From Pseudomonadota bacterium (lineage in GTDB: Bacteria > Pseudomonadota > Gammaproteobacteria > Steroidobacterales > SZUA-146), in assembly GCA_039028935.1 (NCBI GenBank), contig JBCCHD010000003.1, positions 62,001 to 126,000 on the forward strand: a stretch of 64,000 nt of DNA. Reading direction: 5' to 3'. Made by a program: the position numbers and the translations under genes. This document shows, piece by piece, positions 29,029-36,703 of this stretch (its first letter is position 1; each line of letters starts with the position of its first letter). The notes beneath the pieces were generated by a model. It saw nothing but the letters and a program-made list of their open reading frames with translations. It was not told the origin of the DNA and made no database searches.

Positions 29029-30540
29029 GTGACTGAAGCGAACAAAAAAACAACGGCTAAAAACCCGGACAAAACACCGAAGGGTGGCTGTCACGCCAAA
29101 GACGAAATGCGTCAGGCTGCGGCGGCCGCTGGCAAATCAGAAATGCTGGACCGCTACGCCAAAGACTACCCGATGGGACCGCACGACCAGCCTCAGAGCA
29201 TGTGCCCCGCATTTGGTTCTTTGCGCGTTGGGCTGCGCATGCGACGCACGGCGACGATCTTGTCGGGTTCCGCCTGCTGCGTTTACGGTCTGACGTTTAC
29301 CTCCCATTTCTATGGGGCGCGACGCACCGTCGGTTATGTGCCGTTTGATTCAGAGACGTTGGTAACAGGCAAGCTGTACGAGGACATCCGGGATGCGGTT
29401 CACGAAACCGCTGATCCCGAAAAGTACGACGCGATCGTAGTAACCAATCTATGTGTGCCGACCGCATCGGGTATTCCGCTACAGATGCTTCCGAAAGAAA
29501 TCGATGGTGTGCGCATCATCGGCATCGATGTGCCCGGATTCGGTGTGCCAACCCATGCCGAAGCGAAAGATATCTTAGCGGGTGCCATGCTCAACTACGC
29601 CCGCAACGAAGTGCAGGATGGGCCGGTTCAGGCACCACGTGAACAGAGCGATGGACGTCCGTCGGTTGCGTTACTCGGCGAGATGTTTCCAGCGGACCCG
29701 GTGAGTATCGGTCAGCTTTTAGAACCGCTGGGTTTGAATGCCGGGCCCGTTGTGCCCACTCGTGAGTGGCGCGAACTCTATGCTGCGCTGGACGCGCGAG
29801 CGGTCGCTGCGATTCATCCGTTTTACACCGCATCGTGCCGCGAATTTGAAGCGGCTGGTCGACCGATATTTGGTTCAGCGCCGATTGGCCACGACGGGAC
29901 GGCTGACTGGCTCGAAGCAGTCGGTAAAGCCTGCAACATCGATGAAGCAAAAATCGGCGCTGCGAAAGATCAGTTTTTACCGATTATCAAAGGCGCGCTG
30001 GCGGCGTCACCCATCAATGGACGAATTACCTTGTCGGGTTACGAGGGCTCTGAGCTCATCGTGGCGCGATTGCTCATCGAATGTGGTGCCGATGTACGCT
30101 ATGTCGGAACGGCTTGCCCACGCACCCCATGGTCGGACGCCGACCGCGAATGGCTCGAAGCGCGCAATGTGCATGTGCAGTACCGTGCGTCGCTCGAACA
30201 AGACGTTGGCGCCATGAAGGAGTTCAAGCCGGATCTGGCCATTGGCACCACGCCGGTGGTGCAAAAAGCGAAAGAGCTGGCGATCCCGGGGCTCTATTTT
30301 ACAAACTTGATTTCGGCGCGGCCGTTGATGGGTATTCCCGGGCCAGGCGCTCTGTCGCAAGTGATTAACGGCGCGATGGGGCAGAAAGGGCGCTTCGATG
30401 AGATGCGCGAGTTTTTCGAGGGCGTTGGGGCTGGCGATAAAGCCGGGGTATGGAGCGAAACACCGCCGGAACGGAAGCGCGTACATAAGCCGCTGCGTGG
30501 CCCCAAGAGCGCCAAGCTGGTCGCGGAGTCGGTGGTCTGA
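29029..30540 (+). CDS. bchY: Chlorophyllide reductase subunit Y
   Basis: NifD-like catalytic subunit of COR, 503 aa. Cluster-ligand regions are [11 protein letters not shown] near residue 64, the [11 protein letters not shown] segment near residue 84, and [11 protein letters not shown] near 145. Starts with GTG 3 bp after bchX. The first ~40 residues are polar, Lys-rich and probably disordered. Overlaps bchZ by 1 bp (TGATG). Confidence 0.95.
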
Positions 30541-31994
30541 TGTTGGTTCTCGATCACGATCGCGCGGGTGGCTACTGGGGTTCGGTGTATGTCTTTGCCG
30601 CCATTAAGGGCCTGCAAGTGATTATCGACGGTCCGGTTGGTTGTGAAAATCTGCCCGTCACGTCGGTGCTGCATTACACCGACGCATTGCCACCGCACGA
30701 ATTGCCAATTGTGGTCACCGGGCTTGGTGAAGAAGAGCTCGGTCAGCACGGCACAGAGGGTGCGATGAAACGGGCGCACGAAGTGCTCGATTCCGATATG
30801 CCAAGCGTGGTGGTCACCGGTTCGATAGCCGAGATGATCGGTGGTGGGGTGACGCCGGAGGGGACTAAGATCAAGCGCTTTTTGCCGCGCACGATTGATG
30901 AAGATCAGTGGCAGAGCGCCGATCGAGCGCTAACGTGGCTTTGGACCGAATTTGGCCCCAAAAAAGGCAAAGTACCGCCGCGCAAGAAGCGCGCGGACGG
31001 TGTGAAGCCACGCGTCAATATCATCGGCCCCAGCTATGGCTATTTCAATACACCGTCTGACCTGGCCGAAATTCGACGTTTGATCGAAGGTATTGGCGCA
31101 GAGGTTAATCAGGTGTTTCCGCTAGGCAGTCATACATCCGACGTGCGCAAGCTCGTCAATGCCGACGTCAACGTTTGCATGTATCGAGAGTTTGGTCGCC
31201 AACTCTGTGAGCAGCTGGAGCGACCGTATTTGCAGGCGCCAATCGGCTTGCATAGCACAACGAGCTTTCTGCGCGAACTGGGGTCTTTGCTGGAGCTCGA
31301 TCCCGAGCCGTTTATCGAGCGAGAAAAACACACCACGATCAAGCCGCTATGGGATTTATGGCGGTCAGTGACGCAAGACTTTTTTGCAACCGCCAGTTTT
31401 GCCATCGTCGCCAACGAAACGTACACACGCGGCGTGAGAAATTTTCTCGAAAATGACATGGGGCTGCCCTGCACTCTGGCCGAGGCGCGTAAGCCGGGCG
31501 TTAAGCCTAAGAACGACTTAGTTCGAGAATCATTACGCGACAATCCACCGCTCATTATGTTTGGTAGTTATAACGAGCGCATGTACTTGGCAGAGACGGG
31601 CTCAAAAGCGATGTACATCCCGGCGTCCTTCCCAGGCTCGGTAATTCGCCGGCACATCGGTACGCCGTTTATGGGTTACAGCGGTGCGACCTATCTCATT
31701 CAAGAAGTGTGCAACGCCTTGTTTGACGCACTGTTTCATATTCTTCCGCTCGGTACCGAACTCGATAAGGTTGAGCAAACACCGGTTCGCGTACTCCACG
31801 CAATCGAATGGGAAGATATCGCGAAAAAACGGCTCGACGAGATTGTCGAAGCGCGGCCGGTTTTGGTTCGCATCTCTGCGGCCAAACAGATGCGCGATGG
31901 GGCCGAAAAAATTGCGCGCGACGAGGGTCGCGAACGGGTAGACGTTGAGTGTGTAGAAATTGCTGCACGCAAAGTGAATCAGGCTGCTGCATAG
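30540..31994 (+). CDS. bchZ: Chlorophyllide reductase subunit Z
   Basis: NifK-like subunit of COR, 484 aa. The N-terminal [14 protein letters not shown] and [19 protein letters not shown] blocks are diagnostic and carry the cluster cysteine. Further family segments are [20 protein letters not shown] and [21 protein letters not shown]. It precedes the puf operon by 19 bp, so bch and puf messages are probably continuous. Confidence 0.95.
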
Positions 31995-32013
31995 AGCGGC
32001 CATCGGAGAGGGT

Positions 32014-32247
32014 ATGAATTCTGTCACAACCACATCGACTCTAAGTAAATCGCGCGTTGACGTGTCGTTTTTTGGTCGAGCGTTGTTTGCCGTGTTGTTT
32101 GCGGTGCTGCTGCCTGTCGCGCTGATTGCGGCTGCGACGGGGTGGCGTTGGCAGCCTTGGTCGCCAGGTGTCCAGGGTTACCGGAACTTTCTTGTAGAGG
32201 CGAAAATAGCCGCGCGTATTGCAACGGAGACGGCATTGTCGCTTTAA
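32014..32247 (+). CDS. pufQ: PufQ-position small membrane protein with LH1-beta-like C-terminus
   Basis: 77 aa, one transmembrane helix at about residues 22-43 and a good Shine-Dalgarno (GGAGAGG). Position between bchZ and pufB is that of pufQ, which affects bacteriochlorophyll formation in Rhodobacter. The segment WRWQPWSPGVQGY (residues 44-56) closely parallels WQWRPWFPGVDGY of the neighbouring LH1 beta (45-57), and IA-x(4)-W aligns in front, but the bacteriochlorophyll-ligating His of beta is Ala here. It could therefore be PufQ, or a beta-chain paralogue unable to bind pigment. I am confident it is a real puf-operon gene, less so of the name. Confidence 0.72.
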   Translation: MNSVTTTSTLSKSRVDVSFFGRALFAVLFAVLLPVALIAAATGWRWQPWSPGVQGYRNFLVEAKIAARIATETALSL

Positions 32248-32255
32248 GTATTTCG

Positions 32256-32322
32256 CTAGACGCGTAAGCGTCTGGTGATTTTCCCCGCCGTGCGGGATTT
32301 GTGCGGTAACGGCCGAAAGGCC
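32256..32322 (+). repeat. Three RNA hairpins between pufQ and pufB
   Basis: Three successive inverted repeats fill the 95-bp gap. The first is CTAGACGC-GTAA-GCGTCTGG (32256-32275, one G-U). The second is CCCGC-CGT-GCGGG (32284-32296). The third is GGCC-GAAA-GGCC (32311-32322), with a GNRA-type loop. None has a T run, so processing or mRNA stability of the pufBA segment is more likely than termination. Confidence 0.6.
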
Positions 32323-32342
32323 AAGTCATAAGGAATACTACT

Positions 32343-32573
32343 ATGGCTGAAAATGGAAATGCGGGGGGCAGCATGTCCGGTCTTTCCGCAAACGAAGCGA
32401 AGGCGTTCCATCGATTTTTTATGATGGGCATCATCGCATATGTCGTGATAGCAATCATTGCGCACTTTTTAGTGTGGCAGTGGCGCCCATGGTTCCCCGG
32501 AGTCGACGGGTATGCGTCATTAACGGATAGCGTTAACGCTATCTCAAACTTCGTGTTTACGCGATTCACATAG
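32343..32573 (+). CDS. pufB: LH1 antenna beta chain
   Basis: 76 aa. The core SGLSANEAKAFHRFFMMG leads into one transmembrane helix; His41 (AHFLVWQWRPW) is the axial ligand of B875-type bacteriochlorophyll. After the aromatic WQWRPWFPGVDGY motif the protein continues for 19 residues (ASLTDSVNAISNFVFTRFT), longer than the short tails I know for LH1 beta. Inner-membrane antenna around the reaction centre. AAGGAA precedes the ATG. Confidence 0.95.
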   Translation: MAENGNAGGSMSGLSANEAKAFHRFFMMGIIAYVVIAIIAHFLVWQWRPWFPGVDGYASLTDSVNAISNFVFTRFT

Positions 32574-32583
32574 GAGAAATGTT

Positions 32584-32802
32584 ATGTGGCGTATTTGGTT
32601 GATGTTTGACCCGCGCAGAATGATGATCGCACTGACCGTTTTTCTCGCGGTACTGGCATTCTTCCTTCACTTTCTGGTTTTGAGTACCGACCGATTCAAT
32701 TGGGTCGAAGGTACGACTAAAGCAGCATCAGTGATCGAGGTGCCGGCTATGGACGACGTAACGTTTCGCGTTACGGAGAGTTCACTGCAAATTGTTAGCT
32801 AG
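32584..32802 (+). CDS. pufA: LH1 antenna alpha chain
   Basis: 72 aa. MWRIWLMFDPRR N-terminus, one transmembrane helix, His29 (FFLHFLVL) as pigment ligand and W40 (DRFNW) as the usual hydrogen-bonding aromatic. The C-terminal tail after residue 41 is about 31 residues. Begins 10 bp after pufB with GGAG in between. Followed by a strong hairpin before pufL. Confidence 0.96.
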   Translation: MWRIWLMFDPRRMMIALTVFLAVLAFFLHFLVLSTDRFNWVEGTTKAASVIEVPAMDDVTFRVTESSLQIVS

Positions 32803-33762: not shown

Positions 33763-34683
33763 ATGGCAGAATATCAAAATATTTTTACGCGAATTCAGGT
33801 TCACTCTGGTGGTGAAGAAAGCGTGCCGTTTGAAGGCGGCAGCTGGGTACGCCAACTGGGACCTTATCTTAACTATTGGCTGGGCAAAATTGGTGATGCA
33901 CAGATCGGTCCGATCTATCTCGGCGGTTTGGGTGTTGCGTCATTGTTGTTTGGTTTTATTGCGTTCGAAATCATCGGACTCAATATGTGGGCATCCGTAA
34001 ACTGGGATCCACTCGAATTTATTCGACGTCTTCCTTGGTTAACGCTTGATCCACCGGCGGCAAAATACGGCTTAGGCATTCCGCCCATGAATGAAGGTGG
34101 TTGGTGGCTACTCGCAGGCCTGTTCCTCACGATCTCTATCTTGTTGTGGTGGGCTCGAATGTATCGGCGAGCGCGGGCACTCGGCATGGGCACGCATGTG
34201 GCCTGGGCGTTTGCCGCAGCGATCTGGCTGTACCTGGTGCTGGGTTTTATCCGTCCACTTATGATGGGGAATTTTTCGGAAGCGGTGCCGTTTGGTATTT
34301 TCACCCACCTTGATTGGACCAACGCGTTTTCATTGCGCTATGGCAACCTGTTCTACAACCCCTTCCACATGCTCTCGATTGCGTTCCTGTATGGATCGGC
34401 GTTGCTTTTTGCCATGCATGGCGGGACCATTATTGCGACTGAGCGTTATGGTGCACACCGGGAGCTTGAGCAGATCTTGGATCGCGGTACAGCGGCCGAA
34501 CGCGGTGCCTTGTTTTGGCGCTGGACGATGGGTTTCAACGCCAGTATCGAGTCGATTCATCGCTGGGCCTGGTGGTTCGCTATTTTATGCCCGCTAACCG
34601 GTGGCATCGGTATCTTGCTCACTGGCACCGTGGTTGATAACTGGTATTTGTGGGGACTTGAAAACGGTCTGGCCGCGCCATAG
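33763..34683 (+). CDS. pufM: Photosynthetic reaction centre M subunit
   Basis: 306 aa, five transmembrane helices. Iron-ligand regions FAMHGGTII and ESIHRWAWW, and the HRELEQI glutamate, are present, as is NPFHMLSI around the special-pair pocket. The C-terminus ends shortly after [10 protein letters not shown], without a long tail. It is the last gene of the operon: no pufC (tetrahaem cytochrome) or pufX follows, only hairpins and a terminator. Confidence 0.97.
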
Positions 34684-34708
34684 CGATCAGACTGACACCG
34701 TGCATCCC

Positions 34709-34808
34709 GTAGTCGGCACCACACCGGCTACTTAAAGGGTGCGACAACCCGAGCAAACCATGTTTGCTTTCATCATCACATTGCCCTGCTTCGGCAGGGC
34801 TTTTTTTT
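34709..34808 (+). terminator. Hairpin array and Rho-independent terminator of the puf operon
   Basis: Three hairpins follow pufM. GTAGTCGG/CCGGCTAC (34709-34731, one G-U) and AGCAAAC/GTTTGCT (34752-34768) lack T runs and may stabilise the message. GCCCTGC-TTCG-GCAGGGC (34783-34800) followed by eight T residues is a strong intrinsic terminator and marks the end of the photosynthesis cluster. Confidence 0.92.
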
Positions 34809-34948
34809 GTCTGCGAACTGCTGATCACGCGGGAGCTATCAGGGCGGATTGCGCGGAACGGCCCTCGCTCGCTCATGAAATGAACCGGTCTGCCGCTTTT
34901 TAGAGGTCGAAAATTATGGGTAAAATCGACATTTTTGCTTTTTAATAT

Positions 34949-34964
34949 AGGCACTTATATTGCT
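34949..34964 (+). promoter_or_regulatory. Sigma54-type promoter upstream of VPLPA-CTERM gene
   Basis: AGGCAC-N5-TTGCT fits the -24/-12 consensus TGGCAC-N5-TTGCW with one mismatch and the required GG-N10-GC spacing. It lies about 200 bp before the ATG of the VPLPA-CTERM gene. PEP-CTERM genes are often controlled by the sigma54 activator PrsR, which makes this match more credible. Confidence 0.6.
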
Positions 34965-35039
34965 TTGGTTGTCGATGGTCTAAATGCCGCGTGACACGAC
35001 GCTCAGTGGGCCTTTGCTAAATCGGAATCAAATGTATAA

Positions 35040-35054
35040 TGAGAATCATTCGCA
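35040..35054. promoter_or_regulatory. Fur-box-like palindrome
   Basis: TGAGAAT-C-ATTCGCA closely matches the 7-1-7 Fur consensus TGATAAT-N-ATTATCA. It sits between the sigma54-like promoter and the VPLPA-CTERM start, so iron could modulate that gene. Binding is not shown. Confidence 0.5.
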
Positions 35055-35163
35055 AATATGCGGGTGCTGACGGGTGCGACGTTAAGACTGTGCAATACGG
35101 TCAACACGGCGTGTCAGCAATATACAGCGAACAATGACAATAATATTTTTTGGAGGGTTCCCT

Positions 35164-35841
35164 ATGTTATTTCGCAAGTCTTTGATGACTGCTATGGCGC
35201 TGATGGTCGCAAGTGCCGGCAGTCAGGCGTTTGCCGCGTTTCAGGATCCAGCAACCGCCAGTTGGGGTGGCTGGGATCGCAATACTGGTGCAACGATCTA
35301 CGTGCATTGGGATGATTTTGCCTACGATCCCGATCCGGCACCGGCTTTAACGGACGGTACTCCTGACGTTAACAGCTATGGCGTTGCTATCGCCGGTGTT
35401 ACGGCCAACAACCCCACAACACTCGTTACGAGCACGGAGAACCTGTACACCCCAGCGGGGCCAGCAAACTTCACCGTGTCGGTCATTGCCGATGTGCTGT
35501 TGGATGAGAGCGCAAATGGTGTGACCGTGGCGCTGCAGTTGGCGACGCTCGGTACGCAGCTGGATGCCTCAAGCGTGTTTCTGACCGACGGGGTGAACAG
35601 CCCGATCATTCCGGATTCAGCTGAGTCTAGTTTCTCTGCTGGCTTTACGGAGTGGCTGTTCTTGTGGAACCTGGATGCAGACGTATCGACCTACTTCTTC
35701 AACTTCAGCTCCATGACCAATAATCTGTCACTCGCCGCAGTATCGGTCGACATCGGTCCTTCACCTGTGCCTGTACCGGCTGCCGTGTGGCTGTTTGGCT
35801 CAGCGCTGCTCGGCCTCGGCGCGATGCGCAAGAAAGGGTAA
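35164..35841 (+). CDS. VPLPA-CTERM sorting-domain exported protein
   Basis: 225 aa. A signal peptide (about residues 1-23, ending SQAFA) precedes a beta-rich secreted domain of unknown function. The C-terminus carries a VPVPAAVWLFGSALLGLGA motif, hydrophobic helix and basic RKKG end, the tripartite signal processed by an exosortase. Such proteins reach the outer surface or extracellular matrix. GGAGGG 6 bp before the ATG supports the start. Transcription probably begins at the sigma54-like promoter; a strong terminator follows. Function of the body is not recognised. Confidence 0.85.
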   Translation: MLFRKSLMTAMALMVASAGSQAFAAFQDPATASWGGWDRNTGATIYVHWDDFAYDPDPAPALTDGTPDVNSYGVAIAGVTANNPTTLVTSTENLYTPAGPANFTVSVIADVLLDESANGVTVALQLATLGTQLDASSVFLTDGVNSPIIPDSAESSFSAGFTEWLFLWNLDADVSTYFFNFSSMTNNLSLAAVSVDIGPSPVPVPAAVWLFGSALLGLGAMRKKG

Positions 35842-35867
35842 ACCTTAACTGGTTTTTACCGCCTCAG

Positions 35868-35901
35868 ACGGGCTGCTTCTTCGGAAGCAGCCCGTTTGTT
35901 T
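35868..35901 (+). terminator. Rho-independent terminator after the VPLPA-CTERM gene
   Basis: ACGGGCTGCTTC-TTCG-GAAGCAGCCCGT forms a 12-bp perfect stem with a UUCG tetraloop (35868-35895), followed by TTGTTTT. Confidence 0.9.
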
Positions 35902-36019
35902 TGCGCGATCAAAAACCACGCGAACTGTGTGCCGAGCAGAGAGTGCAAATCATTGGTTTTTATTATGAAAAAGCGTTAAATTAACACCTCGCATACCGGT
36001 AATTACAAGGTTGAACACT

Positions 36020-36703
36020 ATGTCATCGAATTTCTCTCGCGTCAGCGCACTGTCGCTGGCCCCGATCAAAAATATCTCACTGGTTTTGACGGCGCTTGCC
36101 GTGTTGTCATTGAGCGCCTGCGGTGGTGGCGACGACGCGAAATCAGCGGCTAATGCCGTCAAGGACGACATGGCTAAAGCAGCGGAAACGGTTAAGGAAG
36201 AAGTTGCCGACGTGGTTGACGATGTTAAAGAGGAAGTGGAAAAAGCCATGGACGACATGGACCACAGCGCGATGTCAACCGAACCGCCAACAGCTGTCGG
36301 CGGGGATGACGGTGATCCGTGCAACATTACCGTGACGGTGGGAGACGCGATTGCGTTCAGCACCGATGCCATCAGCGTACCGTCATCGTGCGGTACGGTT
36401 AACGTCACACTCACGCATACCGGCAAGCTGCCCGCCCAGGCGATGGGGCACAACTGGGTGCTGCTACCGGAAGACTCGTTGGCCGAAGTCGCGGGCGCGG
36501 GTATGGGCTCGGGTCTTGAAGGGAACTACTTGCCGGCTGATGAGCCGCGTATTGTGGCCGCGACCAAAATTATCGGTGGTGGTGAGAGCGCATCGGTCTC
36601 CTTCTCACTCGACAAACTCGAAGACGGGCGGGACTACATTTTCGTCTGCACGTTCCCCGGTCATTGGAACATCATGAAGGGCACATTCTCGGTGAGTGGC
36701 TAA
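36020..36703 (+). CDS. Azurin-type blue copper lipoprotein
   Basis: 227 aa. A lipoprotein signal ends in the lipobox LSAC (Cys34). A charged, helical stalk (about residues 38-85) tethers an azurin domain (about 98-227). All type-1 copper ligands are visible: H144 (MGHNW), C210 (VCTFPGHW), H215 and M219; C101/C124 fit the azurin disulfide. It should be a membrane-tethered periplasmic electron carrier. ATG 36020 is preferred to the TTG at 36011 because AAGG lies 9 bp upstream. Own terminator follows. Partner redox enzymes are not known; the nearby reaction centre lacks pufC, which makes it a candidate donor. Confidence 0.92.
   Translation: MSSNFSRVSALSLAPIKNISLVLTALAVLSLSACGGGDDAKSAANAVKDDMAKAAETVKEEVADVVDDVKEEVEKAMDDMDHSAMSTEPPTAVGGDDGDPCNITVTVGDAIAFSTDAISVPSSCGTVNVTLTHTGKLPAQAMGHNWVLLPEDSLAEVAGAGMGSGLEGNYLPADEPRIVAATKIIGGGESASVSFSLDKLEDGRDYIFVCTFPGHWNIMKGTFSVSG

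Follow-up and report, generated by a model that had tools for sequence, protein, structure and literature searches.

A PufQ-like protein at the head of a gammaproteobacterial puf operon probably belongs to a family related to the LH1 beta chain

The window, a stretch of 64,000 nucleotides, carries a puf operon whose first gene encodes a 77-aa protein. This protein is probably a diverged gammaproteobacterial PufQ of an LH1-beta-related family, that is, the product of a pufB duplicate that turned into a pigment-supply or assembly helper. For PufQ in general, the evidence leans toward the reading that it is a paralogue of LH1 beta. It would have arisen as a tandem pufB duplicate in which both histidines changed to Arg, it would now act as a colourless pigment-supply or assembly factor, and the gamma group of PufQ-like proteins and Rubrivivax ORF2 would keep an ancestral WxWxPW patch. 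Because they keep it, these two groups would document the transition. A prior statement of homology between PufQ and LH beta was not found in the literature searched. PufQ has been called enigmatic, and Bauer and Marrs, as cited in PMC5725709, compared it with reaction center (RC) helices.

The puf operon of the window

The gene order is bchZ, pufQ-like gene, pufB, pufA, pufL, and pufM. The features around the pufQ-like gene are:

30540..31994, + strand: bchZ, the upstream neighbor (assigned from its position and from inspection of the sequence by eye; related loci have the same order)
32005..32012, + strand: putative ribosome-binding site GGAGAGGG (GGAGAGG just 5' of the pufQ-like start, read in the sequence)
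32014..32247, + strand: pufQ-like gene, 77 aa, first of the puf operon (ORF and translation; same-position orthologues; clade with PufQ)
32053..32136, + strand: predicted membrane-spanning helix, residues 14-41 (AlphaFold2, alignment A5, pLDDT 82-87 at residues 21-40)
32077..32079, + strand: Arg22, opposite the second conserved LH1 beta His (position -18; His23) in the position table
32131..32133, + strand: Ala40, aligned with His41 of LH1 beta, the bacteriochlorophyll ligand, in the position table
32143..32181, + strand: LH1-beta-like patch WRWQPWSPGVQGY, residues 44-56 (BLASTP 9/13 to own pufB; W44, R45, W46, P48, and W49 invariant in alignment A1)
32188..32241, + strand: predicted C-terminal helix, residues 59-76, with E62 and A63 of the PufQ tail (AlphaFold2; both residues invariant in A1)
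32253..32278, + strand: intergenic RNA hairpin in the gap between the pufQ-like gene and pufB (fold of 32235-32345 at -39.3 kcal/mol, z = -3.0 against shuffles)
32343..32573, + strand: pufB, LH1 beta, with His23 and His41 present (PF00556 1.8e-8; NF040862 4e-20)
32584..32802, + strand: pufA, LH1 alpha (PF00556 4.5e-14; NF040861 2.7e-18)

The pufQ-like gene occupies the PufQ slot: it opens the operon, with bchZ before it and pufB after it. The end of bchZ (31994) is separated from its start by 19 bp, and its own end is separated from pufB by 95 bp. The hairpin in the latter gap perhaps confers different mRNA stability on pufQ and pufBA. A single membrane helix and a conserved C-terminus, in which E62 and A63 are invariant, are predicted with low to moderate confidence, as the mean pLDDT of the whole AlphaFold2 model is only 69.6.

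The pufB/pufA pair is the only one in the source genome, where a search at E<=1 gave no further LH genes. Directly 3' of pufM, at 34683-36703 of the window, there is no pufC. The + strand genes after pufM appear by eye to encode a PEP-CTERM-type exported protein and then a cupredoxin-like protein. The RC cytochrome family was not found in a search of the genome that was run without a positive control, and the window protein was unmatched in plasmid records.

The LH1-beta-like patch and the histidine positions

The initial annotation had reported the 77-aa ORF at 32014-32247 and a patch in it that parallels the adjacent LH1 beta chain, and both are real. A BLASTP comparison of the window protein with its own pufB product returned one segment (residues 44-56 on 45-57; E=1e-7 for that single comparison), in which WRWQPWSPGVQGY and WQWRPWFPGVDGY are identical at 9/13 positions and similar at 11/13. 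The ungapped register from the Trp places I38-A39-A40 opposite I39-A40-H41 of the beta chain. Thus, the annotation had correctly read that His41 is replaced by Ala in the window protein, with IA just before. The same register places Arg22 opposite His23, a point that was absent from the annotation.

Comparison of groups of sequences puts these replacements in context. At the position of the pigment ligand (position 0), beta chains have His in 98/98 sequences, PufQ proteins outside Rhodobacteraceae have Arg in 20/24 and His in 1/24, the gamma group has Arg in 10, Ala in 2, and Ser in 1, and proteins encoded between pufB and pufA have Gln in 15/16. At position -18, His is again found in 98/98 beta chains, Arg or Lys in 18/24 of the other PufQ proteins, and Arg in 12/13 of the gamma group. 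The beta set was picked by a pattern with both histidines, so its two 98/98 counts follow from how it was chosen, unlike the Arg and Gln counts. In other words, both beta histidines are replaced in the PufQ family, mostly by Arg. Since Arg is usual at the ligand place across the family, the Ala of the window protein is a local state. The annotation had further suggested that this protein arose from, or mimics, a beta chain that cannot bind bacteriochlorophyll. An origin from a chain unable to ligate the pigment through a His is supported by the sequence profiles described below, but it is not a peculiarity of the window protein, as it would apply to the whole PufQ clade.

Is the patch a sign of common descent? 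An alternative is that an unrelated PufQ gained WxWxPW either convergently, at the membrane interface, or from the adjoining pufB through gene conversion. This alternative is considered unlikely, although two observations speak for it. In the single comparison with the window's own pufB, significance is confined to the patch, and a wider likeness needs profiles. Moreover, the patch is missing from most alphaproteobacterial PufQ-position proteins. The Trp at +9 occurs in 2/24 of the non-Rhodobacteraceae PufQ proteins, against 13/13 in the gamma group, 16/16 in the proteins between pufB and pufA, and 95/98 in beta chains. The motif is therefore not universal in PufQ; its universality would have counted against the reading of the annotation. 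In the gamma group, the Pro and last Trp of the patch are kept in 13/13 sequences. Evidence against the alternative is that Arg at +5 is likewise found in 13/13, yet Arg is not among the common beta residues at that position. Further evidence comes from two relatives (L005 and L006) whose own beta chain ends right after WRPWF. Their Q protein runs on through a stretch containing GY into a tail, and since it extends past the end of the beta chain, it is not a recent copy.

Relation to PufQ

The Pfam PufQ model (PF05398) did not match the window protein at E<=10, and nothing in the genome matched it above threshold. NCBIfam gave no match either, and plain PufQ by Pfam or NCBIfam was ruled out as an identity. 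The model itself is narrow, because it misses 15/18 PufQ-position proteins (it matches only 3/18) and its clear matches are essentially from Rhodobacteraceae. In a search of 399 genomes from the phylum, strong matches to it came from one family, f71, and are PufQ sequences of the Rhodobacteraceae type.

A search for relatives identified ten clear orthologues within the order (L002-L011; E 5e-14 to 1e-6), which sit upstream of pufB wherever the locus shows pufB. W44, R45, W46, P48, W49, E62, and A63 are invariant in the ten sequences of alignment A1; of the patch, the relative L011 keeps only the Pro and last Trp. Counterparts also occur in two named MAGs (L121 and L092). With the profile of the gamma group, E-values of 1e-12 to 1e-16 were obtained for other proteins in the PufQ position. 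In hhalign, the gamma group reached 99.1% with the alpha/gamma PufQ set and 49% with Rhodobacteraceae PufQ directly, and the latter two reached 72.7% with each other. The window protein groups as a member of the PufQ clade in a tree of the aligned sequences.

The window protein shares with the PufQ of Rhodobacter sphaeroides and R. capsulatus (PF05398), a regulator of ferrochelatase, the slot between bchZ and pufB, the size, one membrane helix, and a helical tail. Their grouping runs via alpha/gamma intermediates. The window protein differs in that it has no PF05398 match, carries the WxWxPW patch, and lacks the ITPxIF tail. Furthermore, the ferrochelatase of the source genome is without a YDYWSM stretch, unlike that of Rhodobacter.

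Profile evidence for a relation to LH1 beta

The profile comparison of PufQ with LH1 beta that the annotation had called for was run with six groups: the gamma group, other PufQ proteins (the alpha/gamma set), Rhodobacteraceae PufQ, the proteins between pufB and pufA, LH1 beta, and LH1 alpha. Profiles were searched against 7281 ORFs of the loci and reversed decoys. The alpha/gamma PufQ profile, which is mostly patch-free, matched LH1 beta down to 1.5e-11, with 51/104 below 1e-3; the best decoy was at 0.21 and the best LH1 alpha at 1.4. In hhalign against LH1 beta, the alpha/gamma PufQ set scored 96.0%, the gamma group 98.5%, the proteins between pufB and pufA 98.6%, Rhodobacteraceae PufQ 1.4%, and LH1 alpha 0.9%.

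The likeness extends along the chain. With the patch (residues 44-56) masked, the gamma group still scored 87.9% against LH1 beta and found LH1 beta at 5.2e-9, with the best decoy at 0.24. This result answers the annotation's other proviso, that similarity to LH1 beta might not go beyond the aromatic patch. When every Trp-bearing sequence was removed, the alpha/gamma PufQ set scored 59.5% against LH1 beta and found it at 9e-7. That masked and patch-free profiles still match beta specifically argues against mimicry or gene conversion.

Another alternative is that the likeness to LH1 beta reflects mere shared hydrophobic composition of one-helix membrane proteins. The sequences are short, and the 1.4% of Rhodobacteraceae PufQ would fit such a reading. 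Nevertheless, it is very improbable, because no comparable match came from LH1 alpha, the RC L and M helices, the reversed ORFs, or the rest of the PDB. The LH1 alpha control gave 0.2-2% in hhalign, and 31 windows of 75 residues from RC L and M gave at most about 2% against the gamma group, the alpha/gamma PufQ set, the proteins between pufB and pufA, and LH1 beta. Rhodobacteraceae PufQ reached 12.8% with RC L, a value reminiscent of the old comparison with RC helices but no support for it. Against all PDB chains, the ten-sequence gamma profile found LH beta first, at 1e-13, and the matches listed are LH beta or antenna chains. Likewise, a profile of 18 diverse PufQ-position proteins against the whole PDB returned LH beta for all of the top 27 matches (best 2.5e-9), with the first non-LH chain at 0.099. 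In single-sequence searches, LH1 beta was the only significant match for L140, a patch-free PufQ (6.5e-4), and for L139, a His-retaining PufQ (...FAHFMPKKWRGW...; 1.8e-6); L069 found nothing.

The 18-sequence profile was also searched against 369 gammaproteobacterial genomes, where the clear matches lay in puf loci and were pufQ, ORF2, or LH beta genes. Weaker matches look like chance. The one that was checked, L158 at 1.1e-4 in an unrelated genome, lies in a non-coding-looking frame and is a chance match. The NCBIfam pufB model matched one PufQ at 6e-7 and 6/17 ORF2 proteins.

The PufQ family thus appears, from sequence comparison, to be related to LH1 beta over the segment ahead of the membrane, over the membrane helix, and, in the gamma subgroup, also over the WxWxPW interface patch. 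The profile match to LH1 beta (PufB; PF00556, NF040862) is nearly full-length, covering 69 columns, and the helix pattern F-11, A-4, A-1, W+4, W+6, P+8, W+9 is common to both. However, the window protein has Arg22 and Ala40 in place of the histidines, a basic N-terminus, a longer conserved tail, and a place in the PufQ clade. Neither PF00556 nor NF040862 matched it, whereas its own pufB matches both. LH1 beta was therefore ruled out as its identity, as it has no ligand His and no LHC match.

Survey of puf loci, Rubrivivax ORF2, and the tree

Scanning GTDB species genomes for PufL yielded 80 puf loci, whose contents were tallied by hand. A PufQ-position protein was present between bchZ and pufB (or pufL) in 36/80 loci. 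In 19/80, from Burkholderiales or betaproteobacteria where named, pufB and pufA were instead separated by the gene for a 74-aa protein. Neither was present in 25/80, one of which was cut off, and the two co-occurred in 0/80.

Features common to the PufQ-position proteins, which come from Rhizobiales, Methylobacterium, Halieaceae, Competibacteraceae, and other groups, are E(F/Y)R ahead of the helix, F..FL..A, and the tail S(V/I)(F/I).EA+..A....P(F/Y).F.

The 74-aa protein is LH1-beta-like with mostly Gln at the ligand position (L100:3440-3661, L084:3428-3661, and 17 other Burkholderiales-like loci). It corresponds to ORF2 of Rubrivivax gelatinosus, which lies upstream of pufA, is of unknown function, and has been compared with PufA (PMC12817894). 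The Rubrivivax protein at the place of ORF2 matched LH1 beta chains at 6.7e-11 in a single-sequence search and also matches PufQ profiles. ORF2 and its counterparts share with the gamma group one beta-like helix, the lack of the His (Gln in 15/16), and invariant W+6 and W+9, and the two groups reach 98.5% in hhalign. The ORF2 group differs from the gamma group in its place in the operon, its tail (GVKAAVYTFMSHL), and its own branch in the tree. The mutually exclusive distribution of ORF2 and PufQ suggests that they share a role. A beta-chain origin, if true, would also give ORF2 of Rubrivivax a name.

The tree is based on 48 ungapped columns because the protein is short and has one helix. In it, LH1 beta was monophyletic (97.2/91), as were the proteins between pufB and pufA (82.2/96), and the gamma group together with the other PufQ proteins formed a PufQ side (94.4/79). 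The ORF2 group lay between beta and PufQ. As the tree is unrooted, its splits do not show the direction of change. The simplest reading is that the gamma and ORF2 groups have retained an ancestral patch.

Proposed origin and function

How would a beta chain have become PufQ? In the proposed sequence of events, pufB would have duplicated next to itself, giving rise to the PufQ family, and the duplicate would have lost pigment ligation and been recruited as a co-transcribed helper. As in Rhodobacter, this helper would channel porphyrin and pigment toward LH1/RC chains as they are made. Its beta-like face would allow contact with LH1 alpha or the assembly machinery, but would take up no pigment.

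Deletion of pufQ in Rba. sphaeroides left about 6% of bacteriochlorophyll, and PufQ co-purified with ferrochelatase and carotenoid (PMC5725709). Older work cited in the same paper describes PufQ as binding bacteriochlorophyll precursors and affecting LH assembly. The interaction with ferrochelatase and the need of PufQ for normal bacteriochlorophyll are known for Rhodobacter only (PMC5725709). By family membership, a related role in supplying bacteriochlorophyll to nascent LH1/RC chains is most likely for the window gene. Only the parallel with Rhodobacter PufQ makes an assembly or pigment-supply role plausible (PMC5725709). Rhodobacteraceae PufQ, the sole one with genetics, has no direct match to LH1 beta, being linked through alpha/gamma PufQ at 72.7% only.

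The transfer of the ferrochelatase mechanism is uncertain. Y58 of Rhodobacter ferrochelatase, a suppressor residue, is said to mark PufQ-containing organisms. It probably lies within YDYWSM, a Tyr-containing stretch of Rhodobacteraceae ferrochelatase. Gammaproteobacterial ferrochelatase lacks this stretch with or without a pufQ-like gene, and the Y58 correlation was dropped as a link.

A different possibility is that the window protein is a permanent RC-LH1 subunit, a colourless beta-like chain that closes or opens the ring (a gap subunit) or lies between ring and RC. A beta-like helix with an interface patch and no ligand would suit such a subunit. So would the single pufB/pufA pair of the genome, since it would take a further chain to break the ring, if it is broken at all. 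Such complexes are known to contain small additional helices, as with PufX, protein-W, and gamma. This possibility is nonetheless rather improbable, because the PDB LH chains that were retrieved carry LH1 or LH2 beta or antenna annotation and, 8k5o_4 aside, none was identified as such a protein. Rhodobacter genetics also favour pigment supply (PMC5725709).

Chain 4 of PDB entry 8k5o (8k5o_4) is a 105-aa protein present as a single copy in an LH1-RC entry and annotated as an antenna alpha/beta domain protein. It matched PufQ profiles weakly (0.016) and could be a candidate beta-like extra subunit. The paper on the Halorhodospira halochloris LH1-RC (PDB 8K5O) reportedly names single-helix proteins G and Q. 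The entry is ascribed to that species (PMC12817894).

A beta-chain origin of PufQ would give a structural hypothesis for its contact with nascent antenna. It would also bear on membrane topology. With a topology like that of LH1 beta, PufQ would have its conserved tail in the periplasm, whereas the published prediction places the contact of this tail with ferrochelatase in the cytoplasm, which makes for a direct, testable conflict. Charge (the positive-inside rule) is similar on both sides of the helix and does not settle the topology.

Additional observations in the puf loci

Some LH1 beta chains have long, PufQ-tail-like ends (DAKDVAVATIAIAFSA, DQAKVLAQTYVPFAF) in loci without PufQ (L065:3441-3668, L095:3400-3660, L103:3446-3673, and L090:895-1179). 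Homology between PufQ and such tails (L065, L090) gave E 0.17-0.56, which is not significant, so tail-only homology is not claimed. The gammaproteobacterial PufQ-slot protein at L139:1096-1341 retains the His (AHFMPKKWRGW) and is a possible intermediate from LH1 beta to PufQ.

In Halieaceae, four PufQ-like genes follow bchZ (L069:3617-3850, L101:3652-3882, L125:3391-3651, and L127:3623-3883), with pufL directly next and no pufBA between. None of the four belonged to the profile that detected it; for L069 and L101, this was the gamma profile. As pufQ has been reported absent from Halieaceae (PMC3176799, PMC12654162), these four loci, which are not from the strains of those papers, would qualify that statement.
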